A stretch of DNA of 64,000 nucleotides from the NCBI GenBank assembly GCA_018000455.1, contig JAGNJW010000015.1:1-64000 (forward strand). Reading direction: 5' to 3'. Positions within the stretch are counted from its first letter, which is position 1. Each line of letters begins with the position of its first letter. Below the pieces are notes generated by a model. The model did no database searches and had not been told where the DNA came from. It saw only the letters and a program-made list of their open reading frames with translations. The position numbers were made by a program, and so were the translations under genes. Source of the DNA: Acidobacteriota bacterium. Its GTDB lineage: Bacteria; Acidobacteriota; Vicinamibacteria; Vicinamibacterales; UBA2999. Positions 19,687-43,345 of this stretch are shown here, piece by piece.

Positions 19687-19871
19687 CCTCGACGCGCAGA
19701 CCTCCGGCAGCCAGCGCGGCACACGCCGCCATCCCCCACCTGAGGCCGGCTGTGCGCACGCCGCCATCATCGCTTGCGCCCCACGGGCCGCCCGGCGTCG
19801 GCTATCCTTGAGGCGCATCGTCCCGGAGCGGTCGCATGAGGCGTCCGCTGGCGACGACAGAAGGCCGACTC

Positions 19872-20741: not shown

Positions 20742-20756
20742 ACCACGAGGTCTGAC

Positions 20757-26821: not shown

Positions 26822-26904
26822 CGGGTCCTCCACCGGGCCGGCGACCGGGGCAGGACCGCCGACCCCGCGAGGCTCTCACCGCCAGGCGGCCGGCAGCCCG
26901 GCCG

Positions 26905-28695
26905 TCAGCACGACACGCACTTGTGGTTGTTCTTGGCGCCGAGCGAGGCGAGCAGCTGGATGGTCTCAAGGAACGGCTGCACGCGCTGCACCGGGCCGTT
27001 GGCCAGGTCGATGGTGGTCTGGCCGGCGCGGTTCACGCGGGTGACGTCGGCGCCCTTCGACACGAGGTACTTGATCATCTCGGTGTCGCCGCGGGCGGCG
27101 GCGTGATGAATGACGGTGTTGCCCTCATAGTCGAGGGCGTTGACATCGACGCCGACGTCCTCGACGAGATACCGCACGGCCACCATCATCCCGGCCGGAG
27201 CGAAGACGTGCGAGTTGCCGGCGAAGCCCTTGCCGTAGCCGACGCCCGCCACCGCGTGCAGCACGGGAATGCCGGGGCCGCCGACCGGCACCGGCGGCAC
27301 GCTCGAGACGTCGCGCAGCTCGCCGACGCCGTCGAGGCCGCGCGTGCGCTCGGCGGGACGCACGCTCGGAATGAAGGGGTCGGCGCCGCGCCCGACCAGC
27401 AGCCGCATGGCCGTCACGTCGCTGGCATAGGCGGCACGCCAGAACGGCGTCGCGCCGATCTCGTCCACGCCCGACTGATCGAAGTTGTAGCCCGAGTACC
27501 AGACCTTGCGCGTGAGCCGCGCGTTCGGATCCGCGCCCTTGTCGAGCAGCAGCGTCATGAGATCCAGGTAGGTCGTCTGCTGCTGCAGATAGGCGCGCGG
27601 CTGCGGATAGGCAGCCTTGGGTGCCCACTGCACGTTGAGCGTCGCATAGAGCGGCGCGGCGCCGGCCGCGCTGGCGAGATTCGCATCGGCCCCGTGCTCG
27701 AGCAGGTACTTCGCGAGATCGAAGTGGCCGTTGAGTGTTGCGATGAGCAGCGGCGTCGTGCCGTCGCCCGGGCTCGGCAGGTTGACGTTGCCACCGTGTT
27801 CGACGATCGCGCGGGCCGCGGCGAACGCGCCCTGGCGGGCGGCGAAGTGCAGCGCCGAAAGCCCCCCCTGGGCGCCGATGAGCTCGTTGTAGCGATAGGG
27901 TCGCGTGGCACCAGCCACGTCGGCGGCGCGGGCCGGCGTTCGGGCGGGCGCAGCGGCGGCCGGCTGGGCGGCGCCGCGGGCCTGGTTCTGTCCGTCGGGC
28001 TGCGGCTCAGGGGGACGGCCCTCACCATCGCCGCTCGCCGTCAACGCCGCCAGATTCACGACCGTGGACGCCAGATCCGCCGTCGCCCCCCGCGCCAGCA
28101 GCAGCGTGACCACCTCGGCCCGATCGGCGGTGGCGGCAAACATGAGCGCCGTCTGGCCGTTGGCCCGCTCCACCAGATTCACGTCGGCCTTCGCCTCGAT
28201 GAGCGCCGTCGTGGTCGCCACGTGCCCGACCCGCGACGCGAACATCAGCGCCGTGGCGCCAGTGGACGTCGTCTCGTCGGGCTCGGCGCCACGCGCCAGC
28301 AGGGCCGTGACCACCGCCGCCGCGCCGCTCTGGCTGGCCACGTGCAGCGCGGTGTAGCGGCCGAGACGGCTGGTGGCCTTCACGTTGGCACCGGCATAGA
28401 GCAGGATCTCGGTGAGCGGACCGTCGCCGTGGGTGGCGGCCCAATGGAGCGCGGTCATGCCGTCGCCTTGCGCGGCGTTCACGTCGCCGCCCTGGCGCAA
28501 GAGCGTGCGTACTTGGTCGACATCCCGGCGCATCGCCGCATCGGCCACCGCGCTTCGACTGTGCTCGACACGGCCCTGGGCCGAGGCCGCGCCGTCAGCG
28601 GCTAGAGCCGCGGCCGGCCCCGCTAGGTGCAGCCACGTCCCGAGGACGCCAATCGCTGCGGCGATCACGACGCCGCCCCCATGTCGTCGGACCAT
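26905..28695 (-). CDS. Exported ankyrin-repeat protein A with C-terminal HKCVSC
   Basis: A 596-residue protein. Residues about 10-33 are a signal peptide or anchor. Ankyrin repeats run from about 50 to 215 (DGMTALHWAATHGDGPLTEI; TGATALMFASRVGHVATTTA) and from about 270 to 585. A Pro/Ala-rich linker at about 215-265 separates the blocks. The final block, EGNTVIHHAAARGDTEMIKY, ends in NNHKCVSC-stop, a CXXC placed exactly at the C-terminus. It starts 4 nt after the DUF1552 gene, so it is translated from the same message. It probably acts as a periplasmic scaffold for the haem-binding DUF1592 protein. The paralogue at 36798-38576 has the same layout. Confidence 0.88.
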   Translation of the reverse strand: MVRRHGGGVVIAAAIGVLGTWLHLAGPAAALAADGAASAQGRVEHSRSAVADAAMRRDVDQVRTLLRQGGDVNAAQGDGMTALHWAATHGDGPLTEILLYAGANVKATSRLGRYTALHVASQSGAAAVVTALLARGAEPDETTSTGATALMFASRVGHVATTTALIEAKADVNLVERANGQTALMFAATADRAEVVTLLLARGATADLASTVVNLAALTASGDGEGRPPEPQPDGQNQARGAAQPAAAAPARTPARAADVAGATRPYRYNELIGAQGGLSALHFAARQGAFAAARAIVEHGGNVNLPSPGDGTTPLLIATLNGHFDLAKYLLEHGADANLASAAGAAPLYATLNVQWAPKAAYPQPRAYLQQQTTYLDLMTLLLDKGADPNARLTRKVWYSGYNFDQSGVDEIGATPFWRAAYASDVTAMRLLVGRGADPFIPSVRPAERTRGLDGVGELRDVSSVPPVPVGGPGIPVLHAVAGVGYGKGFAGNSHVFAPAGMMVAVRYLVEDVGVDVNALDYEGNTVIHHAAARGDTEMIKYLVSKGADVTRVNRAGQTTIDLANGPVQRVQPFLETIQLLASLGAKNNHKCVSC

Positions 28696-28699
28696 CGCG

Positions 28700-30115
28700 C
28701 TACGCCTCCGCTCGGGCCATCGTCGTATCGACGGCGCGGTTCAGGTCGAGCGCACCCGTGCTGTCGCCGAAGCTCGCGACGTCGACGCCCAGCGCCTGCA
28801 GCGCCGGCAGCATGGCGTTGGCCATCGGCGTGCCGTCGGCGGCCTTGATGTGCAGGTTGCCCTTCAGCCGTCCACCGGCGTGACCGGCGAGGAACAGCGG
28901 GCAGCGCTTGTGGTTGTGCATGTTCGAGTTGCCCATCGCCGAGCCGTAGACGACGAGGCTGTTGTCGAGCAGCGTGCCGCCGCCGTCGGGGGTGCTCTTG
29001 AGCTTGCCGAGCAGATACGGGATGAGACTCACGTGGTAGAGGTTGATCTTCTGGAAGTCGCGGATGCGATCCTCGCGCTCCTGGTGGTGCGAGGCGGTGT
29101 GGAAGGCGTTCGACGAGCTGTTGGGCCCGAACACCCGGTTCGAAACGTCGCGGCTCAGCTTGAAGGCGAAGTTCCTGGTGATGTCGCTGGCAAACGCCAC
29201 CACCTGCAGGTCGAACATCAGCTTCACGTGTTCTTCCCACGAGTCGGGCACGCCGATCGGTGCACCGGGGAGCTCGCGCGCATCACCGCTCGAGTTCTGC
29301 CCCTCGACTTTCTGGATGCGGCGTTCGATCTCTCGCACGTCGTCGAGGTACCCGGTGAGCCGGGCCCGGTCGGCGGCGCCGAGGCGGCCTTTCAGTTCGC
29401 CGACCGACTCGGCGACGAAGTCGAGGATGCTCTTGTCGTCCTTCCGGCGCTCGCGCCGCGCTTCGGGCGTCGTGCCCACGCCGAACAGCTGGTCGAACAC
29501 CGAGCGCGGGTCGCGAATCATCGGCAGCGGTTCGGTCGGCGAGGCCCAGCTGATGGTGTCGGTGTAGACGCACGAGTAGTTGTAGGAGCAGCCGCCCGCC
29601 TGGTCCACGTTTTCGATGCACAGCTGCATCGACGGAATGGGCGTGTCGTGCCCGTAGTGCTTGGCCACGATCTGGTCGAACGAGGTGCCGGCGAAGACGT
29701 CCGACCCCTGCGTCTGCTTCGGCTTGGCCTGGGTGAGGAACACGGCGGCGGACCGGAAGTGGTCGGCGCCGATCTCGGGAGCGCTGAAAGCCTCGGCGTT
29801 GCGGCAGTCGGTGTTGCTGACGATGGTCACGTAGTCGCGGAAGGGCTCGAGCGAGGCCATCGCGGTGGGCGCCAGATCGAAATCTCTGCCGGTGGCCGCT
29901 GGCGCCCACAGGTTCTGGCTCGCGCCGTAGGTGGTGCTGCCGGCCGCGCCGTGCACCATCTCCAGGGCGATGAGCCGCACCTTCTTGTCGGCCATCTTGG
30001 CGTCGGCCGTGCGCGCCGGGATCATGGCATCGAGGAACGGCAGGGCCACGGTGGCCCCGATGCCGCGCAGGGCGGCGCGTCTCGACAAGTGCTGCCTGGT
30101 GATGAAGGTCGACAT
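28700..30115 (-). CDS. DUF1552 family exported protein A
   Basis: A 471-residue protein. The N-terminus HLSRRAALRGIGATVALPFL is a twin-arginine signal. The DUF1552 body (PF07586) has RLIALEMVHGAAGSTTYGAS, PEIGADHFRSAAVFLT, CSYNYSCVYTDTISWASP, LDDVREIERRIQKVEGQNSS and the C-terminal YGSAMGNSNMHNHKRCPLFL with AGHAGGRLKGNLHIKAADGT. The biochemical function of DUF1552 is unknown; it is nearly always encoded next to DUF1592/DUF1588 cytochrome-like proteins. It starts 2 nt after the DUF1592 stop and ends 4 nt before the ankyrin gene. Among the three copies here it is the most divergent, for example SDVFAGTSFDQIVAKHYG where the others have Leu-Asp-Gln. Confidence 0.92.
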   Translation of the reverse strand: MSTFITRQHLSRRAALRGIGATVALPFLDAMIPARTADAKMADKKVRLIALEMVHGAAGSTTYGASQNLWAPAATGRDFDLAPTAMASLEPFRDYVTIVSNTDCRNAEAFSAPEIGADHFRSAAVFLTQAKPKQTQGSDVFAGTSFDQIVAKHYGHDTPIPSMQLCIENVDQAGGCSYNYSCVYTDTISWASPTEPLPMIRDPRSVFDQLFGVGTTPEARRERRKDDKSILDFVAESVGELKGRLGAADRARLTGYLDDVREIERRIQKVEGQNSSGDARELPGAPIGVPDSWEEHVKLMFDLQVVAFASDITRNFAFKLSRDVSNRVFGPNSSSNAFHTASHHQEREDRIRDFQKINLYHVSLIPYLLGKLKSTPDGGGTLLDNSLVVYGSAMGNSNMHNHKRCPLFLAGHAGGRLKGNLHIKAADGTPMANAMLPALQALGVDVASFGDSTGALDLNRAVDTTMARAEA

Positions 30116-30117
30116 AG

Positions 30118-32613
30118 TCAGTGCTTCCCCGGTCCCTGTTCCCTGGCCCTTGGCTGCTCGGTGGCGAGCGGGGCGGCTCGGCGAACCACGCTCAGCTGGA
30201 ACGGGTCGCTCGCGACCACGCCCTGCACGAAGGCCGAGATCCTGTAGTCCTGTCGAGCGGCATGGCGGATGACGGCGCGCACGGCCGCCATGTCCGACGC
30301 CTCGACCCGGCGCCCGAGGGCGTAGGTCATGAGGTGCTCGGTGAAGCTCAGGAGGAACGCGTCCTGATGCTTCAACAGGGCACTCCGCAGCCCGGCAGCG
30401 CCGTCCATCCTGGTGCCATCGTAGAGATCGCCCACCGCATCGACCGGCACGCCGTTGTCGCGGATCCGGTAGCGGCCGGTGGCATCGAAGTGCTCGAGGG
30501 CGAGTCCCAGCGGGTCGATCACCTTGTGGCACGACATGCACGCCGGATTGCGGCGGTGCGCCTCCATGCGCTCGCGCACCGAGAGCACCTTGCCCTCACT
30601 CGTGGCCATGGTTTCCTCGAGCGCCGGCACGTTAGGCGGCGGCGCCGGCGGCGGCGAGCCGAGCAGCACCTCCATGATCCACTTGCCGCGCTGCACCGGC
30701 GATGTCCGGTCGGCGATCGAGGTCAGCGTCAGCACGCTGCCATGACCGAGGATGCCGCGCCGCTCGGCCGGCAGCGCCACGCGGCGGAACTGGTTGCCGG
30801 TGACGCCGCCCACGCCGTAGTGCCGAGCCACGCGTTCGTTGGCGAAGGTGTAGTCGGCGGTGAGCAAATCGAGCACGCTCTTGTTCTCGCGAACGAGACT
30901 GGCCACGAACAGCTCGGTTTCCTGCTGCAGCCCCTGGGCGAGGGTGCTGTCGTAGTACGGATAGAGAATCGGGTCCGGCGAGACGTCGTCGAGATCCTGC
31001 AGGCGCAGCCACTGGGAGGCGAAGCGGGTCGAGAGCGCGTCGGCCCGGGGGTCGGCAAGCAGACGCGTGACCTGGCGGTCGAGCGCGCCCGCCGCACTCA
31101 GCCGGCCCTGCATCGCCAACGCCTGCAGCGGCTCGTCGGGCGCGGCGCCCCAAATGAAGTACGAGAGGCGGGAGGCCAGCTCGCCGTCGGCCAGGCGATA
31201 GGGCTGGCCGGGCTGCGCCGAGGCGGGGGTGTCTTCGAGGCGGAAGAGGAACTGCGGACTGGCGAGGATCGCCTCGACGGCCTTGGTGACACCGCGCTCG
31301 AAAGTGTCGCTCTTGCCCCGCTCGTAGAAGCGCAGCAGGCGCTCGAGTTCGCTGTCGGTGGGCGGGCGGCGGAAGGCCTGTGTGGCCAGTCCTCGCACGA
31401 TCGAGGAGGCACAGGCGGCTTCGTCGCTCGCGCTCGTCGGCCGGCACGTGAAGATCTTCCGTCGGCTCACCGTGTCTGACACACCGGTGACCCGGTGGGG
31501 TCCGACGACGGCCAGGTTCCTGAGGTGAGGCAGGGTGGTGATGCCGACGGCAATGCCGATTTCGGAATCGGCCATCGTGTGGTCGATTGGCGCCACCAGG
31601 TCGTTCACTGGGCCTTCGAACCGCTGCAGGAAGGCGGCCGTCACACGCTGTGCGCCGGCCTGCACGTAGACCGGCACCGTCTTGAGCGACAGGCTCGAGG
31701 TGGTCTCGTTCATCCGCGGATCGATGTCGAAGATGGCGGCACGTTCGCCGTTGATCGACACTTCGATCTGCTCGCCCCGGGCGGTGTTTCCGAACAGCAT
31801 GCCGAGCGGCTCGGCGAAGAAGTCCATCCGGAAGGTGTAGTCGCCGTCGGCCGGGAACGTATGCATCACCGAAATGCCGCCGCGCGTACCGAGCGGCGCG
31901 CCGTCGACGCGGGCGAGCTGCGAGGCCGTCTTCGGCAGGCTGTAGGTGGACTCGCCCGCCGCGCTGTCGGGATCCCCTACCGCCAGCGCCGTGACGCGAC
32001 TGGCCGCGCGCAGGTAGCCTTCAAGCAGCGCCGGCGAGAAGCCCTGCGCGTCGGCCACGTTGTCGAAACCCTGGCTGATCGTGTCGGGAGGCAAGAGCGG
32101 CGCCACGTCGACCTCCACGCCGAGCAGGTCGTAGACCGCGCGCGCGTACTCGGCGCGGTTCAGGCGCTGGAACGGCCGCCAGCCCGGATTGGGGTGCGCC
32201 GCCGCGTGCTCGTCCATGCGCGCTTCGAGCGCGCCCGCCAGATCCTCGAGGGCGCCGGCCGGCGGGCGCTTGGCCCCCGCCGGCGGCATCATGCCAGCGC
32301 GCAGCTTGCGCACCATCATCTCGACGATCTCGGGAGAGTCCTGGGCCCGCATGGCGCTGAAGCCGGCCAGTGACAAGCCGCCCGCCTTGGCGCGCTCGCT
32401 GTGGCAGCCGGCGCAGTAGGTGGTGACGAGGTCGGTCTGCGCGGCCGGGGCGAGCGCGTGCCCGCCGGGGCCGGCAGGCGCCGCCGGCCTGACCGTGGCC
32501 CGTGACGATTTGCGCGCGGTCGCCTGCTCGGCGGTGCCGTCTGCGGCCGCGAGTCCTGCGAGTGCCAGCCCTACCGCCGCGGCCGCCAGGGCCGCCGTCG
32601 CGCTGCGATGCAT
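30118..32613 (-). CDS. DUF1592 multi-domain dihaem cytochrome-like protein A
   Basis: An 831-residue exported protein (signal about 1-24, ATAALAAAAVGLALAGLAAA). The first haem c motif, C67-A-G-C-H71, lies in an N-terminal PSCyt-like domain. It is followed by the DUF1587 segment (PFQRLNRAEYARAVYDLLGV), a carbohydrate-binding-like beta domain, DUF1595, DUF1592 (ELASRLSYFIWGAAPDEPLQ), DUF1588 (FRRVALPAERRGILGHGSVL) and DUF1585. A second motif, C692-M-S-C-H696, precedes KVIDPLGLALEHFD. The protein is thus a predicted periplasmic dihaem redox protein of a group common in Planctomycetes, Verrucomicrobia and Acidobacteria; its reaction is unknown. The downstream DUF1552 gene starts 2 nt after its stop. 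Confidence 0.92.
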   Translation of the reverse strand: MHRSATAALAAAAVGLALAGLAAADGTAEQATARKSSRATVRPAAPAGPGGHALAPAAQTDLVTTYCAGCHSERAKAGGLSLAGFSAMRAQDSPEIVEMMVRKLRAGMMPPAGAKRPPAGALEDLAGALEARMDEHAAAHPNPGWRPFQRLNRAEYARAVYDLLGVEVDVAPLLPPDTISQGFDNVADAQGFSPALLEGYLRAASRVTALAVGDPDSAAGESTYSLPKTASQLARVDGAPLGTRGGISVMHTFPADGDYTFRMDFFAEPLGMLFGNTARGEQIEVSINGERAAIFDIDPRMNETTSSLSLKTVPVYVQAGAQRVTAAFLQRFEGPVNDLVAPIDHTMADSEIGIAVGITTLPHLRNLAVVGPHRVTGVSDTVSRRKIFTCRPTSASDEAACASSIVRGLATQAFRRPPTDSELERLLRFYERGKSDTFERGVTKAVEAILASPQFLFRLEDTPASAQPGQPYRLADGELASRLSYFIWGAAPDEPLQALAMQGRLSAAGALDRQVTRLLADPRADALSTRFASQWLRLQDLDDVSPDPILYPYYDSTLAQGLQQETELFVASLVRENKSVLDLLTADYTFANERVARHYGVGGVTGNQFRRVALPAERRGILGHGSVLTLTSIADRTSPVQRGKWIMEVLLGSPPPAPPPNVPALEETMATSEGKVLSVRERMEAHRRNPACMSCHKVIDPLGLALEHFDATGRYRIRDNGVPVDAVGDLYDGTRMDGAAGLRSALLKHQDAFLLSFTEHLMTYALGRRVEASDMAAVRAVIRHAARQDYRISAFVQGVVASDPFQLSVVRRAAPLATEQPRAREQGPGKH

Positions 32614-32684
32614 GCCACTGTCTCCGCTCCGCCTCGCGGCGGTTCATGCCCTCCGGTTCCGACCCGCCGGCTCCGGGGCCCACC

Positions 32685-34088
32685 CTAGAGCGTCGCGGTG
32701 GTGGCCGGCGCCGAATTCAGATCCATCGCGCCCGTGCTGTCGCCAAACTCCGTGACGTCGTCCAGCCCCAGCATGTGCATCACGCTCAGCATAGCGTTGG
32801 CCATCGGCGTGCCGTCGGCCGCCTTGATGTGCAGGTTGCCCTTGAGCTGACCGCCGGCATGGCCGGCCAGGAACAACGGGCAGCGCTTGTGGTTGTGCAC
32901 GTTGGAGTTGCCCATCGGCGATCCGTAGAGCACCAGCGTGTTGTCGAGCAGGTTGCGCTCGCCGTCAGGCGTGTTCTTCAGCTTGTTCAGGAAATACGGG
33001 ATCATCCCGATGTGATAGAGATTGATCTTCTGGAAGTCGCGGATGCGATCGTCCCGATCCTGATGGTGTGAGGCCGAGTGGAACGCCGTCTTCACGCCGC
33101 TGTCGGCGAAGACGCGGTTGCTGGCGTCGCGGCCCAGCTTGAACGAGAACACCCGCGTGATGTCACTGGCGAAGGCGATCGCCTGCAGGTCGAACATCAG
33201 CTTGATGTGCTCTTCGAACGAATCGGGCACGCCCACCGGTGCGCCGGGCAGCGCGCGCTCGTTGCCGCTGCTGTTGAACGATTCGGTCAGCTGGATGCGG
33301 CGCTCGATCTCACGCACGTCGTCGAGGTACTCCCCGAGGCGAGCTTGGTCGGCGGCGCCCAGTTCCTTCTTGAGCCGCGCCACGTCGGACGTGATCCAGT
33401 CGAGGATGCTCCGGTCCTCGGCCCGCCGTTCGGCGCGGGCGCCCGCCGTGGCGCCGACACCGAAGAGCTGGTCGAAAGCCACCCGCGGATCGCGGATCAT
33501 CGGCATCGGATCGGTCGGCGACGACCAGCTGATGGTGTCGGTGTAGACGCACGAGTAACCGTAGGAGCAGCCGCCGGCCGCGTCCACGTTCTCGATGCAG
33601 AACTGCATCGACGGGATCGGCGTGTTCTGTCCGAACTTCTTCGCGAAGTGCTGGTCGAGCGACGTGCCGACGCGGACGTCGGAACTCTGCGTCTGCTTGG
33701 GATGGAGCTGCGTGAGGAACACGGCGCTCGAGCGGAAGTGGTCACCGCCGATTTCGGGCAGTTCGAACGCTTCGGCATTTCTGACGTCGGTGTTGCTGAC
33801 GATCGTAAGGTAGTCGCGCAGCGGCTCGAGCGGCAGGAGGGCCGAGGGCGTCAGATCGAAGCTTGCGCCGGTGGCCGCCGGGGCCCACATGTTCTGCTGG
33901 ATGCCGAAGGCCGTGCTGCCGGCCGAACCGTGCACCATCTCGATGCAGGCCAGCCGCATCTTCCCAGCGGCCGTCTGCGCCAGTGCCGTACGTGCCGGCA
34001 CCATCGCCTCGAGAAACGGCAGCGCCACGGTCACACCCAGGCCCTTGAGGGCCGCGCGCCTGGACAAGTGCTTCTGCGTGATGAACAT
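32685..34088 (-). CDS. DUF1552 family exported protein B
   Basis: A 467-residue protein with the Tat-type start HLSRRAALKGLGVTVALPFL and an Ala-rich cleavage region (ARTALAQ). The DUF1552 landmarks are LACIEMVHGSAGSTAFGIQQ, PEIGGDHFRSSAVFLTQLHP, CSYGYSCVYTDTISWSSPTD and YGSPMGNSNVHNHKRCPLFL. Its N-terminus is almost identical to that of copy C (38595-39998), including MFITQKHLSRR, so B and C are the closer pair. This module lacks an ankyrin gene: the next gene downstream is DUF1592 A after 71 nt. A 127-nt gap with a strong palindrome separates it from the upstream DUF1592 B. Confidence 0.92.
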   Translation of the reverse strand: MFITQKHLSRRAALKGLGVTVALPFLEAMVPARTALAQTAAGKMRLACIEMVHGSAGSTAFGIQQNMWAPAATGASFDLTPSALLPLEPLRDYLTIVSNTDVRNAEAFELPEIGGDHFRSSAVFLTQLHPKQTQSSDVRVGTSLDQHFAKKFGQNTPIPSMQFCIENVDAAGGCSYGYSCVYTDTISWSSPTDPMPMIRDPRVAFDQLFGVGATAGARAERRAEDRSILDWITSDVARLKKELGAADQARLGEYLDDVREIERRIQLTESFNSSGNERALPGAPVGVPDSFEEHIKLMFDLQAIAFASDITRVFSFKLGRDASNRVFADSGVKTAFHSASHHQDRDDRIRDFQKINLYHIGMIPYFLNKLKNTPDGERNLLDNTLVLYGSPMGNSNVHNHKRCPLFLAGHAGGQLKGNLHIKAADGTPMANAMLSVMHMLGLDDVTEFGDSTGAMDLNSAPATTATL

Positions 34089-34138
34089 CGCGTGTCTCCG
34101 CCTCCGAAATGCGTGCCGCTGATCCTATCCGAAACCTG

Positions 34139-34182
34139 CCGGGGTCAGGCCGCTGGAAATCCTCGTCGGGGCCAGACCCCGG
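34139..34182 (-). repeat. Imperfect palindrome between DUF1592 B and DUF1552 B
   Basis: CCGGGGTCAGGCC (34139-34151) pairs with GGCCAGACCCCGG (34170-34182), 12 of 13 positions, around an 18-nt loop. It sits in the only long gap within a module of the array. It could attenuate transcription, cap an mRNA end or be a dispersed repeat; the related GGGGCCTGGCCC occurs twice near 13.5 kb. No T tract follows. Confidence 0.6.
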
Positions 34183-34215
34183 CGAGCCCCCCGGACCCGC
34201 ATCAGTGGCCCCGTG

Positions 34216-36762
34216 TCAGTGTCTGGCTCCGGCCGCCGGGGCGGTGGTGGTCGTCTCGGGCGCGTCGATGCGGCTCATGCGGAATGCCTGACTCGCTACG
34301 ATCCCCTGCACGAACGACTGCACCCTGTAGTCGTCGGCCGCCGCGTCACTGATGATCTGTCTGACCGTCGGCATGTCGTAGGACTCGATGCGACGCCCGA
34401 GCGCGTAGGTCATCAGGTGCTCGGTAAAGCTCAGCAGCACGGCGTCCTTGTGACGCAGCAGCGCCTTCCGGAGGCCCACCGGGCCGTCGAGCTTGGAGCC
34501 GTCGTAGAGAACGCCCACCGGGTCGACAGCCACTTCGTTGTCCTTGATGCGCCAGGCGCCGGTGACATCGAAATTCTCGAGCGCCAGGCCGAGCGGGTCG
34601 ATCACCTTGTGGCACGACATGCACGCCGGATTCGCCCGGTGCTGCTCCATCCGCTCGCGCACCGACAGCGTGCGTCCACCGGCCGTGTCCTTGGTCTCAT
34701 CGAGAGCCGGCACGTTCGGCGGCGGCGCCGGCGGCGGCGAACCGAGCAGCACTTCCATGATCCACTTGCCGCGCAGCACCGGCGACGTGCGGTCGGCAAT
34801 CGAGGTGAGCGCCAGGACGCTGCCGTGGCCGAGGATGCCGCGCCGGTTCGGGTCGGCCACCGCCACCTTACGGAAGGCGTTGCCCGTCACATTTGGCACG
34901 CCGTAGTGAATCGCGACGCGCTCGTTCACGAACGTGTAGTCGCCATCGAGCAGATCCAGCACGCTCTTGTTCTCGCGGACCAGACTGTCGACGAACAGCT
35001 CGGTCTCGCGCCGCAGTCCCTGAGCCAGCGTGTCGTCGTAGTCCGGATACTGCAGGTAATCGGGAATCAACTTGTCGAGATCCTGCAAGCGCAGCCACTG
35101 CGCGGCAAAGCGCGTCGACAGCGCTTCCGACCGCGGGTCGGCCAGCATCCGCTCGACCTGGGTGCGCAAGGCCGCCGGCGTGCGCAACTGGCCAGCCGAG
35201 GCCGCCGTGATGAGTGGCGTATCCGGCACCGTGCCCCACAGGAAGAACGAGAGCCGCGAGGCCAGAGCCTCGTCGCTCAGCCGGAAGGGCTGTCCGGCGC
35301 GCATCGTCGCCGGCACCTCCTCGAGGCGGAAGACGAAACGCGGACTGGCGAGGATCGCCTGGAGCGTGTAGCGGATGGCGTGCTCGAAATCGCCCTTCCG
35401 GCGCCCTTCGGTATAGAACCCCATCAAGGTCTCGAGATCGGCCGGTGGCACCGGCCCGCGGAAGGCACGGCTCGCCATCGCATTGATGATCTCGCCAGCG
35501 CAGGTCGGCTCCTCGGCCGCCGCGGTCGGCCGGCAGGTGAAGATGCGGCGGCGGCTCACCGAGTCGGACACGCCGGTCACGACGTAGGGGCCGTTGACCG
35601 TCATGTCGCGCAGGTGAGGCAGCAACGTGACGCCGAAGCTCATGCTGACGTCGGCCAGCGTATTCTCGGCAGGCACGAGCAGGTCGACGATCGGCGCCTC
35701 GAACTTCTGGATGAACGCGGCCGAGACGACGTGCGGCCCCGCCGTCACGTGGATGCGCGCCGTTTTCGGATCGAGGCTGTTGGCGGGATCCGATTCGCTC
35801 ATGCGCTCGTTCAGAGGAATGACCGCCACGCGCTGGCCGTCGATGGCCACGTCGATCTCTTCCTTGATGTTCATGACGCTCATCGTCGAGCGTCCGTAGA
35901 GGCCGCCGAGCGGCTCGTTGTGGAGGTTGACGCCAATGACGTAGTCGCCGTCGGCCGGGAAGATGTGGGTCACGACGATGCCGCCGCGCGTGCCCATCGG
36001 CGCGCCCTCGATCTGGCGCATCTGCGACATGGTGCGGCCCACCTTGTAAGTGGCTGCCGAGGGCGTCGCGTCACGATCGCCCACCGCGAGGCGGCTGATC
36101 TGGCTGGCGGCACGCATGTAGCCCTCGAGGAGCGTCGGCGACATGCCCTGCACGTCAGCCACGTTGTCGAACCCGTGGCTCATGGTATCGGCCGGCAGGA
36201 ATGCCGTGACGTCGACCTCGATGCCGAGCAGGTCGCGCACGGCGCGGGTGTACTCGGCGCGGTTGAGCCGCTGGAACGGACGCCGGCCCGGATTGGGGTT
36301 GGTGGCCGCGTGCTCGTCCATTCGCGATTCGAGCGCCGCGGTCAGCAGGTCGATGGTCGCCGCGTCGGGCCGGCGGGCCCCGGCCGGCGGCATCATGCCC
36401 GCGCGCAGCTTGCGAATGATCTTCTCGACCACCTCAGGCTGCTCCTGCGCCCGCATGGCGTTGAAGTTGGCAAGCGAGAGCCCGCCCGCCTTGGCGCGTT
36501 CGCTGTGGCAGGTGGCGCAGTAGGTCGTCACGAGCTCGGTCTGCCCCGCGGCGGTGAGCGGAACGGCCCCGGGCGTGTGCGACGCTGCAGGCGTCGTCGA
36601 CGCCGGGCGCGACTGCGCCTGTGCCTGCGCAGAGCGGAGTCGAGCCGGTGCTGAGAGGGCCGCAGGCGGCGCCTGCGCGGCGCTGACGACCAAGCCGAAG
36701 GCGATCGCCGCCGCGCCCGCTGCGGTCGCTGTCACTCGTCGTCGTGTCATGACTGGTGGCAT
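34216..36762 (-). CDS. DUF1592 multi-domain dihaem cytochrome-like protein B
   Basis: An 848-residue exported protein. The signal is in TRRRVTATAAGAAAIAFGLV, followed by an Ala/Gln/Pro-rich linker. The first haem site is C82-A-T-C-H86. The DUF1587 region reads PFQRLNRAEYTRAVRDLLGI, DUF1592 LASRLSFFLWGTVPDTPLIT and DUF1588 RGILGHGSVLALTSIADRTS, and the second haem site CMSCH precedes KVIDPLGLALENFDVTGAWR. The C-terminal part (LSFTEHLMTYALGRRIESYD) is DUF1585. I start at the ATG at 36762; 36750 is an in-frame alternative just inside. A frame further upstream would overlap the ankyrin stop. It follows ankyrin B by 35 nt, linking modules C/B. Confidence 0.92.
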   Translation of the reverse strand: MPPVMTRRRVTATAAGAAAIAFGLVVSAAQAPPAALSAPARLRSAQAQAQSRPASTTPAASHTPGAVPLTAAGQTELVTTYCATCHSERAKAGGLSLANFNAMRAQEQPEVVEKIIRKLRAGMMPPAGARRPDAATIDLLTAALESRMDEHAATNPNPGRRPFQRLNRAEYTRAVRDLLGIEVDVTAFLPADTMSHGFDNVADVQGMSPTLLEGYMRAASQISRLAVGDRDATPSAATYKVGRTMSQMRQIEGAPMGTRGGIVVTHIFPADGDYVIGVNLHNEPLGGLYGRSTMSVMNIKEEIDVAIDGQRVAVIPLNERMSESDPANSLDPKTARIHVTAGPHVVSAAFIQKFEAPIVDLLVPAENTLADVSMSFGVTLLPHLRDMTVNGPYVVTGVSDSVSRRRIFTCRPTAAAEEPTCAGEIINAMASRAFRGPVPPADLETLMGFYTEGRRKGDFEHAIRYTLQAILASPRFVFRLEEVPATMRAGQPFRLSDEALASRLSFFLWGTVPDTPLITAASAGQLRTPAALRTQVERMLADPRSEALSTRFAAQWLRLQDLDKLIPDYLQYPDYDDTLAQGLRRETELFVDSLVRENKSVLDLLDGDYTFVNERVAIHYGVPNVTGNAFRKVAVADPNRRGILGHGSVLALTSIADRTSPVLRGKWIMEVLLGSPPPAPPPNVPALDETKDTAGGRTLSVRERMEQHRANPACMSCHKVIDPLGLALENFDVTGAWRIKDNEVAVDPVGVLYDGSKLDGPVGLRKALLRHKDAVLLSFTEHLMTYALGRRIESYDMPTVRQIISDAAADDYRVQSFVQGIVASQAFRMSRIDAPETTTTAPAAGARH

Positions 36763-36797
36763 GCTGTTTTGCCGTCGTGTCGCTGTCGGTGCACCGT

Positions 36798-38576
36798 CTA
36801 GCACGACACGCACTTGTGATGGTTCTTCGAACCGAGCTTCTCGAGCAGCTGCAGGGCCTCTGGATACGGCTGGGTGCGCTGCACCGGACCGTTGGCCATG
36901 TCGGCCGTCGACTGCCCCTCGCGGTTCAGGCGCGTCACATCCGCCCCCTTCGACACCAGGTACTCGATCATCGCGACATCGCCGCGGGCCGCCGCCTGGT
37001 GCAGGGCGGTGTTGCCTTCATGGTCGGCCGCGTTGACGTCGGCGCCGAGCTCCTCGACCAGGTACTTCACCGCCGCCATCATGCCGCTCGGCGCATAGCG
37101 GTGCGAGTTGGCCGCAAAGCCCTCGCCGTAGCCGACGCCGGCGGCGGCCTGCAGCGGCGTGACGCCGGGGCCGCCAATCGGCAGCGGTGGCAGCACGGAG
37201 GTGTCGCTGCCCTCACGCACGCCGGCGTCGCCCACCCGCGGACGTCCGGCCGGCTTGGTCGTCGGGATGCTCGGATCCGCACCGGCCTTGACGAGCATCT
37301 TCATGGCTTCGATGTCCGAGGCATAGGCGGCGCGCCAGAAAGGCGTCGCGCCGATCTCGTCAACGCCCGACAGGTCGAAGTTGTAGCCCGAGTACCACAC
37401 CTTGTACTTGAGGCGGGCGTTCGGATCGGCGCCCTTGTCGATGAGCGCCTGCAGCGTCGCGAGGTAGCTGGCTTTCTGCTGCAGGTACGAGCGCGGCTGC
37501 GGGTAGAGCGCCTTGGGCGCCCACTGGACGTTCAGCACCGCATAGAGGGGCGCCACGCCGTTGTCGCTGACCGCGTTCGGGTCAGCGCCCTTGTCGAGCA
37601 TGAAGAGGGCGATGTCGAAGTGCCCGTTCGCGATGGCCAGCACGAGCGGGCTGGTCTTGTCGCCACCACTGGCCTGATTGACGTCGGCACCGGCCTCGAG
37701 CAGCACCCTGACGGCGTCCATCGAGCCCTGGCGCGCGGCAAACAGCAGCGGCGTCATGCCGCCCTGCCAGCCGACCAGCTCGTTGTAGCGGAAGTTGCGC
37801 TCGACGCCCGCCTTGCCCTGCTGCGGGCCGCGACGGCCACCGCCGCCGGCAGCCGCGGCGGCCGCTGGCGCGGCGCCGGGCGCCTGAGCACCGGCCGGCG
37901 CCCCGGACTGCTGCCCCTGGCCCTGCTGCGGTTGCTGCTGGCGGAAGAACTCCTCCTCGGGCGAGGTCAGCGACGCCAGGTTCACCACTTTCGACACTGC
38001 CTTCACGTTGGCGCCGGCGGCGATGAGCGCCTTCATGACGTCGACCCGGGTGTTGGCCGCCGCGAACATCAGCGGGGTCTGCTCCATCGAGGATTCCTTC
38101 GCCTCGACATCGGCGCCGGCGTCAAGCAGGGCCTTGACGGCCTCGACGCTGCCCGATGCGGAGGCCAGCATGAGCGGCGTCGTGCCGGTCGTGGTCGCCA
38201 GTTTGGCGTCGGCGCCGGCCTTGAGCAGCACGTCGACGACCGCGGCGTTGCCGTTGCGCGCGGCGATGACGAGCGGCGTGTTGCCGCCAAGACGGGTCGT
38301 CGCCTTCACGTTCCCGCCGGCGTAGACGAGCATCTGCGCCAGCTCGGCGTCGTTCTTCATCGCGGCCCAGTGCAGCGCCGTCGTGCCGTCGCCCTGCGCG
38401 GCGTTGACGTCGCTGCCTTCCTGCAGCAGCGTCTTCACCGTGGCCCGGTCGCCGGCCATCGCCGCGTCGGCCACCGGCGCGGCTGACTGGGCGCCGAGCA
38501 CCACCGTGAATGCCAGCGCGGTCGCGCCCACCAGGGCGGCGCCGCCCTTCACCGCGTATCCGAATTGAAGCTGCAT
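36798..38576 (-). CDS. Exported ankyrin-repeat protein B with C-terminal HKCVSC
   Basis: A 592-residue protein with a signal peptide (GAALVGATALAFTVVLGAQ), ankyrin repeats at about 35-210 (GTTALHWAAMKNDAELAQML; GNTPLVIAARNGNAAVVDVL), a Gln/Pro/Ala/Gly-rich linker at about 212-270 and further repeats to the end. The last repeat, EGNTALHQAAARGDVAMIEY, is followed by NHHKCVSC-stop. Layout, linker position, the conserved block KVWYSGYNFDLSGVDEIGAT and the Cys tail match paralogue A, so both derive from one ancestor. It follows DUF1552 C by 18 nt and precedes DUF1592 B by 35 nt. Confidence 0.88.
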   Translation of the reverse strand: MQLQFGYAVKGGAALVGATALAFTVVLGAQSAAPVADAAMAGDRATVKTLLQEGSDVNAAQGDGTTALHWAAMKNDAELAQMLVYAGGNVKATTRLGGNTPLVIAARNGNAAVVDVLLKAGADAKLATTTGTTPLMLASASGSVEAVKALLDAGADVEAKESSMEQTPLMFAAANTRVDVMKALIAAGANVKAVSKVVNLASLTSPEEEFFRQQQPQQGQGQQSGAPAGAQAPGAAPAAAAAAGGGGRRGPQQGKAGVERNFRYNELVGWQGGMTPLLFAARQGSMDAVRVLLEAGADVNQASGGDKTSPLVLAIANGHFDIALFMLDKGADPNAVSDNGVAPLYAVLNVQWAPKALYPQPRSYLQQKASYLATLQALIDKGADPNARLKYKVWYSGYNFDLSGVDEIGATPFWRAAYASDIEAMKMLVKAGADPSIPTTKPAGRPRVGDAGVREGSDTSVLPPLPIGGPGVTPLQAAAGVGYGEGFAANSHRYAPSGMMAAVKYLVEELGADVNAADHEGNTALHQAAARGDVAMIEYLVSKGADVTRLNREGQSTADMANGPVQRTQPYPEALQLLEKLGSKNHHKCVSC

Positions 38577-38594
38577 CGCCGTGTCTCCGAGAGG

Positions 38595-39998
38595 CTAGAG
38601 GGTCGCGGTCGCCTCGGGCGCCGCGTTCAGATCGGTCACGCCCGTGCTGTCTCCGAACGCCGTCGTGTCGGAGAGCCCGAGCAATTGCATGGCACCGAGC
38701 AGCGGATTCGCCATCGGCGTCCCGTCGGCCGTCTTGATGTGCAGGCCGCCCTTCAGCCGGCCGCCGGCATGGCCGGCGAAGAACAACGGGCAGCGCTTGT
38801 GATTGTGGACGTTCGAGTTGCCCATCGGCGAGCCATAGATGATGAGCGTGTTGTCGAGCAGGCTGCCATTCCCGTCGGGCGTGTTCTTCAGCTTGTCGAG
38901 GAAGTAAGGCAGCTGCGCCACGTGGTAGGTGTTGATCTTCTGGAACTCGCGGATGCGATCTTCGCGGTCCTGATGGTGCGACGCGGGATGGAAGCCGTTG
39001 TTCGATCCGCTCTCCGGATACGCCCGGCTGGACCCATCGCGGCCCATCTTGAACGAAAACACGCGCGTGATGTCGCTGGCAAACGCCACCGCCTGCAGGT
39101 CGAACATCAGGCGCACGTGTTCGCCGAAGGCATCGGGCACACCCACCGGAGCGCCGGGCAGCTCCCGCGGATCGCCGCTCGAGTTCGAGGCTTCGATCTT
39201 CTGGATGCGGCGCTCGATCTCGCGCACGTCGTCGAGGTACTCGCCGAGGCGTGCCCGGTCGGCCGGACCGAGATCCTTGCGCAGCTTCGCGACCTCAACG
39301 GTGATGAAGTCGAGGATGCTCTTGTCGCGCTGTCGGCGGGTCGCGCGTTCGGCGGGCGAGCCGCCGACGCCGAAGAGCTGGTCGAAGGCCGCGCGCGGAT
39401 CGCGAATCATCGGCAGCGGCTCCTCGGGTGAGGCCCAGCTGACGGTGTCGGTGTAGACGCATGAGTAGCCGTAGGCGCAGCCGCCGGCCTGGTCGATGCT
39501 CTCGATGCACAGCTGCATCGACGGGATCGGCGTCTCATGGCCGACTTTCTTCGCATAGAACTGATCGAGCGAGGTGCCGGCGAGCACGTCGCTGCCCTGC
39601 GTCTGCTTGGGATGGCTCTGCGTGAGGAACACCGCGCTCGAGCGGAAGTGGTCGCCGCCAATCTCCGGCAGCTCGAACGCCTCGGCATTTCGCACGTCGG
39701 TGTTGCTGACGATGGTCAGGTGCTCGCGGAAGGGCTCGAGCGGCGCCAGGCTGGTCGGTGACAGATCGAAGTTGCGCCCGGTGGCCGCCGGCGACCACAT
39801 GTTCTTCTGCAGACCGATCACGGTCGCGCCGGCCGACCCATGCACCATCTCGATGGCGGCAAGACGCACCTTGCCGGCGGCGGTCTGCGCGAGCGCGGTG
39901 CGCGCCGGCACCATGGCTTCGAGCAACGGCAGCGCGACGGTGACGCCCAGTCCCTTGAGGGCGGTGCGGCGCGAGAGGTGCTTCTGCGTAATGAACAT
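38595..39998 (-). CDS. DUF1552 family exported protein C
   Basis: A 467-residue protein, same length as copy B, beginning MFITQKHLSRRTALKGLGVT, a twin-arginine signal, with an ARTALAQ cleavage region. Body markers are EMVHGSAGATVIGLQKNMW, PEIGGDHFRSSAVFLTQSHP, CAYGYSCVYTDTVSWASPEE and YGSPMGNSNVHNHKRCPLFF. It ends SFGDSTGV-like (TAFGDSTGVTDLN), as do the others (FGDSTGAL/FGDSTGAM). It lies 34 nt after DUF1592 C and 18 nt before ankyrin B, so the three form one translational unit. The DUF1552 function is unknown. Confidence 0.92.
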   Translation of the reverse strand: MFITQKHLSRRTALKGLGVTVALPLLEAMVPARTALAQTAAGKVRLAAIEMVHGSAGATVIGLQKNMWSPAATGRNFDLSPTSLAPLEPFREHLTIVSNTDVRNAEAFELPEIGGDHFRSSAVFLTQSHPKQTQGSDVLAGTSLDQFYAKKVGHETPIPSMQLCIESIDQAGGCAYGYSCVYTDTVSWASPEEPLPMIRDPRAAFDQLFGVGGSPAERATRRQRDKSILDFITVEVAKLRKDLGPADRARLGEYLDDVREIERRIQKIEASNSSGDPRELPGAPVGVPDAFGEHVRLMFDLQAVAFASDITRVFSFKMGRDGSSRAYPESGSNNGFHPASHHQDREDRIREFQKINTYHVAQLPYFLDKLKNTPDGNGSLLDNTLIIYGSPMGNSNVHNHKRCPLFFAGHAGGRLKGGLHIKTADGTPMANPLLGAMQLLGLSDTTAFGDSTGVTDLNAAPEATATL

Positions 39999-40032
39999 CA
40001 GCGTGCTCCTAATGACAGACTCAACGTCGTGA

Positions 40033-42561
40033 CTAGTGTGCGGGCGCCGGCGCCACGGTGGCCGGCTCGACGCCTTCCACGCGGCTCATACGGAACGCCG
40101 GCGAGGTAACCACGCCAATCAGGAAGGCGGAGATCCGATCGTCCTGCTTGCCCGCGTCGCGGATGATCTTCCGCACGGTGGGCATGTCGTAGGGCTGCAT
40201 GCGGCGGCCGGTGGCGTAGGTCATGAGACGCTCGGTGAAACTCAGGAGGAACGCGTCCTTGTGCTTCAGGAGCGCGTTGCCCAGCCCGATCGGGCCATCC
40301 ATCTTCGTGCCGTCGTAGAGTTCGCCCACGGCGTCGACCGGCACTTCGTTGTCCTTGATGCGCCAGGCGCCGGTGACGTCGAAGTTCTCGAGCGCCAGGC
40401 CGAGCGGGTCGATCACCTTGTGGCACGACATGCAGGCGGGGTTCGCGCGGTGCTGCTCCATGCGTTCGCGCACCGAGAGCAGCCGACCGCCCACGGCCCC
40501 GCCGGTCTCTTCGAGGGCCGGCACGTTGGGCGGAGGCGCCGGCGGCGGTGAGCCGAGCAGCACTTCCATCACCCACTTGCCGCGCTGCACCGGCGACGTG
40601 CGATCGGCCACCGACGTCAGCAGCAGCACGCTGCCGTGCCCGAGCACGCCGCGACGTCCAGTGGGCGTCGGCACCTTGCGGAATTCAGAGCCCATGACAT
40701 TGGGAATACCGTAGTGGCGCGCCACGCGCTCGTTCACGAAGGTGTAGTCGGCGCGCAGCATGTCGAGGATGCTGCGGTCGTCGCGCACGAGGCTATCGAA
40801 GAAGAGCTCGGTTTCGCGCACCAGGTTCTCGGCCAGCGTGTAATCCCAGTAGGGATAGAGCAAGGCGTCGGGTCGAATCTTCTCCACGTCCTGGAGGCGC
40901 AGCCACTGGCCGGCGAACCGCGTCGACAGCGCTTCCGAGCGTGGGTCGGCGATCATCCGGCGTACCTCGGCGGCCAGTCGGGCCGTCGTCTTGAGCGCTC
41001 CGGAGGACGCCGCCGTAATCAGCGCCTGATCGGGTCCGGTCCCCCACAGGAAGTACGACATCCGCGAGGCGAGATCGAGGTCGGCCACGCGGAACGTCTC
41101 TCCGACCCGGGCCGCCGCCGGCGGCTGCTCGAGGCGGAAGACGAAGCGGGGGCTGGCGAGCAGGGCCTCGAGGGCCGTCTCGATGCCGGCTTCGAAATCG
41201 GCGCCGGCGCGCCCCTTCTCGTAGAAGTCGAGCAGCCCCTGCACATCGGCGGTCGAGACCGGCTCGCGGTAGGCCTGCGACGCCAGGCGCTTCAGGATCT
41301 CGGTCGCGCACGGTAGTTCTTCGGCCAGCGTCGTCGGCCGGCAACTGAAGACCCGGCGGCGGCTCACCGTCTCGGACACGCCGGTGACCTTGAACGGACC
41401 GCTGATGCTGAAATCGCGCACGTGCGGCAGCGTCGTGACGCCGAAGCCGCTGCCGATCTGCGAGTCGGCGAGGGTGTAGTCCTGGGGGGCGAGCAGGTCG
41501 TCGACGGGCGCTTCGAACTGGCGCAGGAACGCCGCCGAGACGCGCTGCGGGCCGGCCAGCACGTGCACGCGCGGCGATTGCAGGTTCATGCCGTTCTCGT
41601 CCTGCTCGCTCATCGAGTGGTGGATGTCGAGGACTGCGACGCGCGCGCCGTTGATCGAGATTTCGATCTTCTCGCCGCGGACGATGCTGCCGTAGAGCTG
41701 CCCGGTCGGAATCGAGTGCAGCATCACGCGGAAGCTGTAGTCGCCGTCGGCCGGGAACACGTGCACGAGCGACACGCCGCCGCGGGTGCCGAGCGGCGCG
41801 CCTTCGATGTGCACCATCTGCGACTGCGTGCGCGGCACCTTGTAGGTGGCTTCTGTCGGCGCCGAATCGGGGTCGCCGAGGGCGAGTTGCGTGATGCGGC
41901 CGGCAGCGCGCAGGTAGCCTTCCATCAGCGTCGGCGAGAAGCTCTGGGCGTCGGCGACATTGTCGAAGCCGTTGCTGATCGTGTCGGCCGGCAGGAACGT
42001 GGACACGTCGACGTCGATGCCGAGCAGATCCTTGACCGCCGTGGCGTACTCGGCGCGATTCAGCCGCTGGAATGGACGCCAGCCCGGGTTCGGGTTGACG
42101 GCGGCCAATTCGTCCATCCGCGATTCGAGCGCCGCCGTCAGCGCCTCGATGGTGGACGCGTCGGGCCGTCGCGATCCGGCCGGCGGCATCATGCCGGCGC
42201 GCAGCTTGCGGATCATCTTCTCGATGACCTCGGGGTGCTCCTGGGCCTGCATCGCGTTGAAGTCGGCAAGCACCAGCCCGCCGGCCTTGCCACGCGCGCT
42301 GTGGCAGGTGGCGCAGTACTGGGTCACGAGCTCGGTCTGTGCGGCGGCCGAGAGCCCGGCCGTGTGCGAAGGCGCCAGGGCCTGAAGGGCCTGGGCGCGG
42401 CCGGCCGGCGCGGGTGAAGTGGCACGAGCCGCCGGCTGGGGCGCAGGACCCTCAACGGCACCGACGACCAGCCCGGTGCCGGTCACGGCGGTGAGCGCGA
42501 TGGCGACCGCAAACGGCTCCATGAGCCCCACGAATCGCCCTAAGTAGCTGATTCCACACAT
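40033..42561 (-). CDS. DUF1592 multi-domain dihaem cytochrome-like protein C (first gene of the array)
   Basis: An 842-residue exported protein. The signal is in MEPFAVAIALTAVTGTGLVV. The first haem site, C83-A-T-C-H87 (QYCATCHSARGKAGG), is followed by DUF1587 (PFQRLNRAEYATAVKDLLGI), DUF1592 (DLASRMSYFLWGTGPDQALI), DUF1588 (RRGVLGHGSVLLLTSVADRT) and a second haem site in ACMSCHKVIDPLGLALENFD. I start at the ATG at 42561 (MCGISYLGRFVG); an ATG at 42522 is possible. The open frame to 42852 runs antisense into msrA and is not used. A TATACT 12 nt upstream could be the -10 of the whole leftward array. Confidence 0.92.
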   Translation of the reverse strand: MCGISYLGRFVGLMEPFAVAIALTAVTGTGLVVGAVEGPAPQPAARATSPAPAGRAQALQALAPSHTAGLSAAAQTELVTQYCATCHSARGKAGGLVLADFNAMQAQEHPEVIEKMIRKLRAGMMPPAGSRRPDASTIEALTAALESRMDELAAVNPNPGWRPFQRLNRAEYATAVKDLLGIDVDVSTFLPADTISNGFDNVADAQSFSPTLMEGYLRAAGRITQLALGDPDSAPTEATYKVPRTQSQMVHIEGAPLGTRGGVSLVHVFPADGDYSFRVMLHSIPTGQLYGSIVRGEKIEISINGARVAVLDIHHSMSEQDENGMNLQSPRVHVLAGPQRVSAAFLRQFEAPVDDLLAPQDYTLADSQIGSGFGVTTLPHVRDFSISGPFKVTGVSETVSRRRVFSCRPTTLAEELPCATEILKRLASQAYREPVSTADVQGLLDFYEKGRAGADFEAGIETALEALLASPRFVFRLEQPPAAARVGETFRVADLDLASRMSYFLWGTGPDQALITAASSGALKTTARLAAEVRRMIADPRSEALSTRFAGQWLRLQDVEKIRPDALLYPYWDYTLAENLVRETELFFDSLVRDDRSILDMLRADYTFVNERVARHYGIPNVMGSEFRKVPTPTGRRGVLGHGSVLLLTSVADRTSPVQRGKWVMEVLLGSPPPAPPPNVPALEETGGAVGGRLLSVRERMEQHRANPACMSCHKVIDPLGLALENFDVTGAWRIKDNEVPVDAVGELYDGTKMDGPIGLGNALLKHKDAFLLSFTERLMTYATGRRMQPYDMPTVRKIIRDAGKQDDRISAFLIGVVTSPAFRMSRVEGVEPATVAPAPAH

Positions 42562-42721: not shown

Positions 42722-43345
42722 ATGCAGATTTCGAGCCTGTTCGGCGGCGACGTAGCAGACCTGGCCAACTTCCCGTCCCCGAGCCTCGACGTCGCACCAG
42801 GCGCGGGCGGGCCGGCCGCGGCCGTGCTCGCTGGCGGGTGTTTCTGGTGCACCGAGGCCGTGTTCCTGCCGATCGATGGCGTCCAATCGGTGGTCTCTGG
42901 CTACATCGGCGGCGCGGCGGAGACCGCCAACTACGAAGCGGTGTGCGCGGGCACGACCGGCCACGCCGAGGCCATCCGGATCACGTTTGTGCCCGAGGTC
43001 GTGTCGTTCGGACAACTGCTGCGGGTGTTCTTCGCCGTGGCGCACGACCCGACCCAATTGAATCGCCAGGGCAACGACCGCGGCGCGCAGTACCGGTCGG
43101 CGATCTTCCCGGCTGATGCCGAGCAGCAGGCAGTGGCCGAAGCCTACATCGCGCAGCTGAACGCCGCCGGTGTCTTCGGCGCGCCGATCGCCACCTCGGT
43201 CGAACCGGCGACGCCGTTCTACCCGGCCGAGACCTACCACCAGAACTACGCGGCCCGGAATCCGCATCAACCGTACGTGGCGGCCGTCGCCGCGCCCAAA
43301 GTCGGCAAATTGCACAAGTACTTCGCCGACCGGCTGAAGACGTAG
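42722..43345 (+). CDS. msrA: Peptide-methionine (S)-S-oxide reductase MsrA
   Basis: A 207-residue protein. The active-site motif GGCFWC is at 38-43, with catalytic Cys40. The family also shows in VVSGYIGGAAETANYEAVCA, GHAEAIRITF, LLRVFFAVAHDPTQLNRQGN and DRGAQYRSAIF. The C-terminal YPAETYHQNYAARNPHQPYV is typical of single-domain MsrA. It reduces methionine-S-sulfoxide in damaged proteins. No signal peptide is seen, so it is cytoplasmic. The ATG at 42722 has GAGGGG 10 nt upstream. It is divergent from the array; a functional link is not shown. Confidence 0.95.
   Translation: MQISSLFGGDVADLANFPSPSLDVAPGAGGPAAAVLAGGCFWCTEAVFLPIDGVQSVVSGYIGGAAETANYEAVCAGTTGHAEAIRITFVPEVVSFGQLLRVFFAVAHDPTQLNRQGNDRGAQYRSAIFPADAEQQAVAEAYIAQLNAAGVFGAPIATSVEPATPFYPAETYHQNYAARNPHQPYVAAVAAPKVGKLHKYFADRLKT

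Follow-up and report, generated by a model that had tools for sequence, protein, structure and literature searches.

A tandem array of DUF1592, DUF1552 and ankyrin genes

The window, the 64,000-nucleotide stretch of Acidobacteriota DNA analysed here, contains a tandem array in which DUF1592 and DUF1552 genes recur together with genes for exported ankyrin proteins. This arrangement raises the question of whether the three proteins form a unit and what such a unit might do. The original prediction of eight same-direction genes making up three DUF1592-DUF1552 pairs and two ankyrin genes was borne out, as all of the open reading frames were found and in the order claimed. The features of the array, in window coordinates, are:

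40033..42561, minus strand: DUF1592 protein, module 1 (Pfam domains, CXXCH motifs, model; start 42561 or 42522)
38595..39998, minus strand: DUF1552 (HXXSHH) protein, module 1 (Tat-type N-terminus; predicted alkaline phosphatase/sulfatase-superfamily fold)
36798..38576, minus strand: exported ankyrin protein, module 1 (Ank B), ending ...NHHKCVSC
36801..36824, minus strand: codons of the Ank B C-terminal tail NHHKCVSC with the invariant CxxC (tail alignment, DNA pattern)
34216..36762, minus strand: DUF1592 protein, module 2 (Pfam domains, CXXCH motifs)
32685..34088, minus strand: DUF1552 protein, module 2 (Pfam), no own ankyrin gene behind it
30118..32613, minus strand: DUF1592 protein, module 3 (Pfam domains, CXXCH motifs)
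28700..30115, minus strand: DUF1552 protein, module 3 (Pfam; Tat-type N-terminus)
26905..28695, minus strand: exported ankyrin protein, module 3 (Ank A), ending ...NNHKCVSC
26908..26931, minus strand: codons of the Ank A C-terminal tail NNHKCVSC with the invariant CxxC (tail alignment, DNA pattern)

The order of transcription, read from the open reading frames of the window and their Pfam domains, is DUF1592-DUF1552-Ank, DUF1592-DUF1552, DUF1592-DUF1552-Ank, the middle pair (DUF1592 B-DUF1552 B) being without an ankyrin gene of its own. Measured from stop to likeliest start, the intergenic gaps are 34, 18, 35, 127, 71, 2 and 4 nt; the predicted spacing of mostly 2-35 nt applies to five of the seven and not to the other two (127 and 71 nt). 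The true start of the module 1 DUF1592 gene (DUF1592 A) is probably 42522 or 42561 and not the longest-ORF start. The same eight-gene array, with a first ankyrin protein 84% identical to ours, was found in another Acidobacteria bin (L037), and because that bin repeats all eight genes in order the array is not a chance arrangement. As named by sequence only, a MacB/ADOP-like permease gene (24416-26833, minus strand) begins about 70 nt beyond the end of Ank A in the same orientation and possibly shares its transcript, and a likely msrA gene for methionine sulfoxide reductase A (42722-43345, plus strand) is divergent from the array start. The window also encodes, at 19836-21974 (plus strand), an exported creatininase-family protein and, behind it, a class V aminotransferase-like protein whose N-terminus contains RR and is possibly of Tat type.

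A recurrent ankyrin partner with an invariant C-terminal dithiol

Relatives of the ankyrin protein were collected by scanning GTDB contigs, blind to gene neighbors, with the aligned ankyrin proteins of this genome (three sequences); the scan gave 398 stretches with 333 relatives among them, and 74 loci were kept. Of the 95 long ankyrin genes in these loci, 82 came with 3 kb or more of sequence upstream, and 76 of these 82 lay directly behind a DUF1592-DUF1552 pair. The triplet occurs across Acidobacteriota and Gemmatimonadota, so the adjacency is not confined to this genome; such confinement was the outcome that the original prediction had named as fatal to it. Taxon labels of the matched records were mainly Acidobacteria and Gemmatimonadetes, with a few Gammaproteobacteria, Acidimicrobiia and Cyanobacteria that may be mislabelled bins. 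Taking DUF1552 as the start point in 15 genomes gave a DUF1592 gene upstream in 119 of 128 cases and an ankyrin gene of this family directly downstream in 80 of 128, against a chance expectation, estimated from gene density, of well below one. Since about one third of the DUF1552 genes, including that of the middle pair in the window, have no ankyrin gene downstream, the ankyrin protein may be dispensable or shared. No consistent neighbor family of the triplets, glycan-degrading or other, was found; each family occurred in 8 of the 74 loci at most. In one locus (L068, 613-5413) the ankyrin gene directly follows DUF1592 with no DUF1552 between them; L080 resembles it, with a DUF1592 gene cut by the contig end. 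A first look at G049, G060, G070, G079, G086, G087 and G094, genomes from related families, gave 28 to 41 DUF1552 candidates each, a large expansion of the DUF1552 gene family.

The ankyrin proteins begin with hydrophobic stretches that by appearance are signal-peptide-like, in agreement with the predicted signal peptides, and in this genome the three end in NHHKCVSC, NNHKCVSC and NNHRCVSC. The tail cysteines were invariant in all 82 aligned relatives, the preceding histidine was 90% conserved, and in 60 of the 82 these were the sole cysteines past residue 40. A CxxC was located no more than three residues from the end in 92 of the 95 long ankyrin genes, and two of the remaining three run off the contig. 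The DUF1552 partners of the tail-bearing ankyrin proteins formed one clade (30/30 sampled tips, support 1.0) and have a histidine at position 53, where other DUF1552 proteins mostly have asparagine. An exported ankyrin protein was also encoded next to the pair in ten more distant loci, in some of them from an upstream or divergent gene, as at L143 (1012-6576) and L150 (306-5735); none of the ankyrin proteins there had the CxxC tail, and the DUF1592 proteins of this subtype retain both CXXCH motifs. The ankyrin association is thus broader than the tail, as the distant subtype has tailless ankyrin proteins.

The dithiol could point to a role of the ankyrin protein in maturation, as a periplasmic haem chaperone or apocytochrome dithiol reductase dedicated to loading the CXXCH sites of DUF1592. 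CcmH carries a CxxC comparable to the ankyrin tail, an invariant dithiol at the extreme C-terminus would suit a place where CXXCH thiols need reduction, and the window has two DUF1592-DUF1552 pairs ahead of one ankyrin gene, as a shared chaperone could. Moreover, the available text of PMC7567364 describes Cj1386 as trafficking haemin to KatA and haem-adjacent ankyrin proteins as needed for catalase activity. However, the ankyrin proteins of the distant subtype have no tail cysteines and yet their DUF1592 partners keep both CXXCH motifs, and general cytochrome c assembly genes were found in this genome, which makes a role in maturation unlikely.

DUF1592 is a putative dihaem cytochrome with a carbohydrate-binding-like domain

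The three DUF1592 proteins of the window share the Pfam order PSD3, PSD5, PSD4 (DUF1592), PSCyt3 and PSD2, with 3/3 above the curated cut-offs. The module 1 protein is laid out as an N-terminal cytochrome c, PSD3, a CBM-like beta-sandwich, PSD5, PSD4, PSCyt3 with the second CXXCH, and PSD2. Two CXXCH motifs, as predicted, are present in all three window copies, together with an invariant methionine within KLRAGMMPP, and 69 of the 73 DUF1592 proteins aligned have both motifs. These motifs, and the cytochrome c assembly genes of this genome, support the assignment of the DUF1592 proteins as dihaem c-type cytochromes, in which both sites would be loaded with haem.

The AlphaFold model of DUF1592 (pLDDT 86.6) contained a single recognizable insertion, a beta-sandwich spanning residues 171-333 (numbering of the modelled DUF1592 A, window 40036-42381). 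Fold searches with the predicted model matched this domain to CBM36, CBM6 and CBM35 with Z up to 10.3. The whole-model search, which also served as the comparison with dihaem peroxidase/MauG/RoxA enzymes, gave matches essentially all to the beta-sandwich; these filled the list and may have masked other folds. The N-terminal haem domain by itself gave a weak match only, to a flavocytochrome c haem subunit (E 0.007). Sequence searches of the PDB with the DUF1592 and DUF1552 profiles returned nothing useful. When the three window copies are compared, identity is 73-87% in the haem-2 region and PSD3 but only 43-55% in the beta-sandwich and PSD5. This divergence is compatible with differing ligands and lends slight backing, short of showing such ligands, to the prediction that the array was amplified for several substrates.

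DUF1552 has a predicted sulfatase-like fold and a candidate metal site

PF07586 (HXXSHH) scored above its cut-off in the DUF1552 proteins of the window (270-296 bits), with HxASHH conserved. The Tat-like signal predicted for each of them was seen as an RR pair in all, and in 79 of 79 aligned proteins. The AlphaFold model (pLDDT 81.7) matched sulfatases and phosphodiesterases in Foldseek (E 7e-4, probability 0.99) and the alkaline phosphatase/sulfatase superfamily by VIA-align (Z 15.7 over 259 residues), placing DUF1552 in this superfamily by predicted fold. The Tat-type start and the enzyme-like predicted fold are both as expected for the Tat-folded enzyme proposed originally. Residues E50, H53, D116, H117, S120, H337, H341, H398, H400 and H420 are invariant or near-invariant and suggest a candidate metal site, with E50, H53, S120, H337, H341, H398, H400 and H420 as candidates for the metal ligands and nucleophile of the superfamily. 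Coupling of C164 and C403 to the ankyrin tail was considered and dropped, as 18 of 79 tail-subtype proteins are without one or both cysteines.

If the fold is taken at face value the unit could instead be hydrolytic, with DUF1552 acting as a hydrolase of phosphatase or sulfatase type and the haems of DUF1592 being structural or serving only for sensing. The predicted match to sulfatases and phosphodiesterases favors this idea, but the formylglycine (FGly) signature of type I sulfatases, [CS]xPxR, was present in only 2 of 79 DUF1552 proteins, the first strand is followed by E..H or E..N in place of the usual Asp pair, as judged from an inferred correspondence of catalytic residues, and the presence of two haems in a conserved setting argues for redox chemistry. 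A purely hydrolytic unit is therefore improbable in our estimate.

Triplets are inherited, gained and lost as blocks

The predicted co-evolution of the module members was examined by comparing distance matrices of the DUF1592, DUF1552 and ankyrin proteins; the pairwise distances correlated with r = 0.89-0.92 across 73 triplets. As a control, modules were swapped within a contig only, so that species relationships were kept, and this shuffling dropped the mean correlation to 0.76-0.80. None of 1000 shuffles reached the observed value, and therefore the modules are inherited as blocks, bearing out that prediction. Block inheritance of neighbors is no proof of physical contact, and a complex of the three proteins is inferred.

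At the thresholds used for searching, DUF1552 and DUF1592 are each represented by exactly four genes in the genome (5.19 Mb, 54 contigs). A single contig, C17, carries them all, and the four modules lie within about 55 kb. The fourth module and the remnants of others are:

C17:75476-81259, plus strand: fourth full DUF1592-DUF1552-Ank triplet, outside the window and on the opposite strand to the array
C17:64826-65155, minus strand: triplet scar 1, just beyond the window end, with a signal-like N-terminus and an NNHRCVSC tail
C17:85878-86750, minus strand: candidate triplet scar 2, part of DUF1592 joined to an ankyrin end
C38:204937-205293, minus strand: candidate triplet scar 3, part of DUF1592 joined to an ankyrin end

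In each of the three scars a DUF1592 fragment is fused in frame with the end of an ankyrin gene, and the tail DNA pattern matched only the three ankyrin genes and two scars in the genome. The flanks of scar 1 enclose an intact, full triplet in two congeners (G003 and G004). The scars and the intact congener site indicate that triplets are lost, and gained, as whole units; scars 2 and 3 could be assembly errors instead of deletions. C17:64826-65155 was also considered as a stand-alone exported tail protein and rejected, as comparison with the two congeners identified it as the scar of a deleted triplet.

It is quite unlikely that the three genes simply co-travel by local duplication within large families with no physical unit, an idea that would fit four modules so closely spaced, an agreement of distances that co-inherited neighbors alone yield equally and an ankyrin gene separable from the pair in some loci, but that sits poorly with a gene order identical across two phyla and with a distant subtype that keeps the ankyrin gene beside the pair in other arrangements, which linkage by descent explains less well.

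Proposed mechanism

We tentatively favor the reading that the array consists of copies of a periplasmic haem/metalloenzyme redox unit built on an ankyrin scaffold and probably acting on glycans. DUF1592, with two c-type haems and a CBM-like beta-sandwich, would bind a glycan, or a substrate derived from one, and exchange electrons with the respiratory chain in one direction or the other. Metal-dependent catalysis would fall to its partner DUF1552, exported folded via Tat, with its conserved His-rich site. The two would be held together by the ankyrin protein as a scaffold, whose invariant C-terminal dithiol (HxCxxC) may serve at this contact as an arm for redox chemistry or metal handling. The glycan side of this reading draws on the CBM-like matches, the link of Cbp2D to cellulose in the available text of PMC8981238 and the CBM-bearing PSCyt proteins of PMC5615132. 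A bolder version, which we regard as rather doubtful, is that the HxCxxC ankyrin protein is a new redox- or metal-shuttling scaffold coupling a sulfatase-fold metalloenzyme to a dihaem carbohydrate-binding cytochrome in an oxidative glycan-processing complex. If true, such a complex would be new to any organism. With the fixed third partner and its two-cysteine tail, the predicted fold of DUF1552 and the CBM-like domain of DUF1592, a gene family becomes a system of three proteins that can be tested, and one whose DUF1592 and DUF1552 members number in the tens in some relatives' genomes, with as many as 41 DUF1552 candidates per genome at first look.

Comparison with known systems

Elsewhere, a secreted DUF1552 protein of Rhodopirellula baltica was tabulated among stress-responsive genes (PMC2754498). 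The predicted DUF1552 fold resembles the alkaline phosphatase/sulfatase superfamily over about 260 residues (VIA Z up to 15.7) but DUF1552 differs from it in the missing [CS]xPxR signature, the His-rich conserved site and the cytochrome partner.

The best functional lead for DUF1592, by analogy, is Cbp2D of Cellvibrio japonicus. In the available text of PMC8981238 this protein has a small cytochrome c (CjX183, PDB 7B21), DUF1587, a second CXXCH domain and a CBM, knockout of the Cbp2D and Cbp2E genes slowed growth on cellulose, and the Cbp2D cytochrome was able to reduce LPMOs. CjX183 was not among the sequence matches of DUF1592, and the likeness is one of published architecture: a small cytochrome c, DUF1587, a C-terminal second CXXCH and a carbohydrate-binding module. 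As described in that text Cbp2D differs in having CBM2, YceI-like and FN3 domains, in its link to LPMOs and in having no reported DUF1552 or ankyrin partner. An LPMO was considered as a partner here as well and rejected, no AA10 LPMO being found in this genome, and for this reason the electron partner of DUF1592 probably differs from that of Cbp2D.

For the ankyrin protein the best precedent, again by analogy, may be the periplasmic ankyrin proteins linked to catalases. According to the available text of PMC7567364 (citing Howell 2000 and Flint 2015), ankyrin proteins encoded beside haem enzymes are reported to be needed, in two of the cases, for catalase activity, probably via haem binding, the cited pairs being AnkB-KatB of Pseudomonas aeruginosa, Ank-KatE of Leptospira and Cj1386-KatA of Campylobacter. 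By that description they differ in having another haem protein and in having no DUF1552 partner or CxxC tail reported, and the neighbors of the ankyrin gene here are DUF1592 and DUF1552 and not a haem catalase.

Also among the closest known systems are the PSCyt3/PSD genes (Planctomycete-specific cytochrome genes, DUF1592 class) of Verrucomicrobia. He et al. 2017 (PMC5615132) reported that PSCyt3 genes usually adjoin a gene family of undetermined role and that some PSCyt genes carry CBMs, the function of such genes being then unexplained. They share with our locus the same PSD/PSCyt domain set, a conserved neighbor family and, in some, CBMs, and differ in having no ankyrin protein (the word "ankyrin" is absent from PMC5615132), no tandem triplets and no CxxC tail. 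The system had been predicted to be undescribed; among the open-licence papers searched this holds for the ankyrin partner and not for the pairing of a PSCyt3-type gene with a second family, on record since 2017 (PMC5615132). A search of open-licence papers found none on the DUF1592-DUF1552-Ank triplet, the ankyrin partner or its tail. The novelty of this locus is the recurrent ankyrin partner of DUF1592-DUF1552 together with its invariant dithiol tail.
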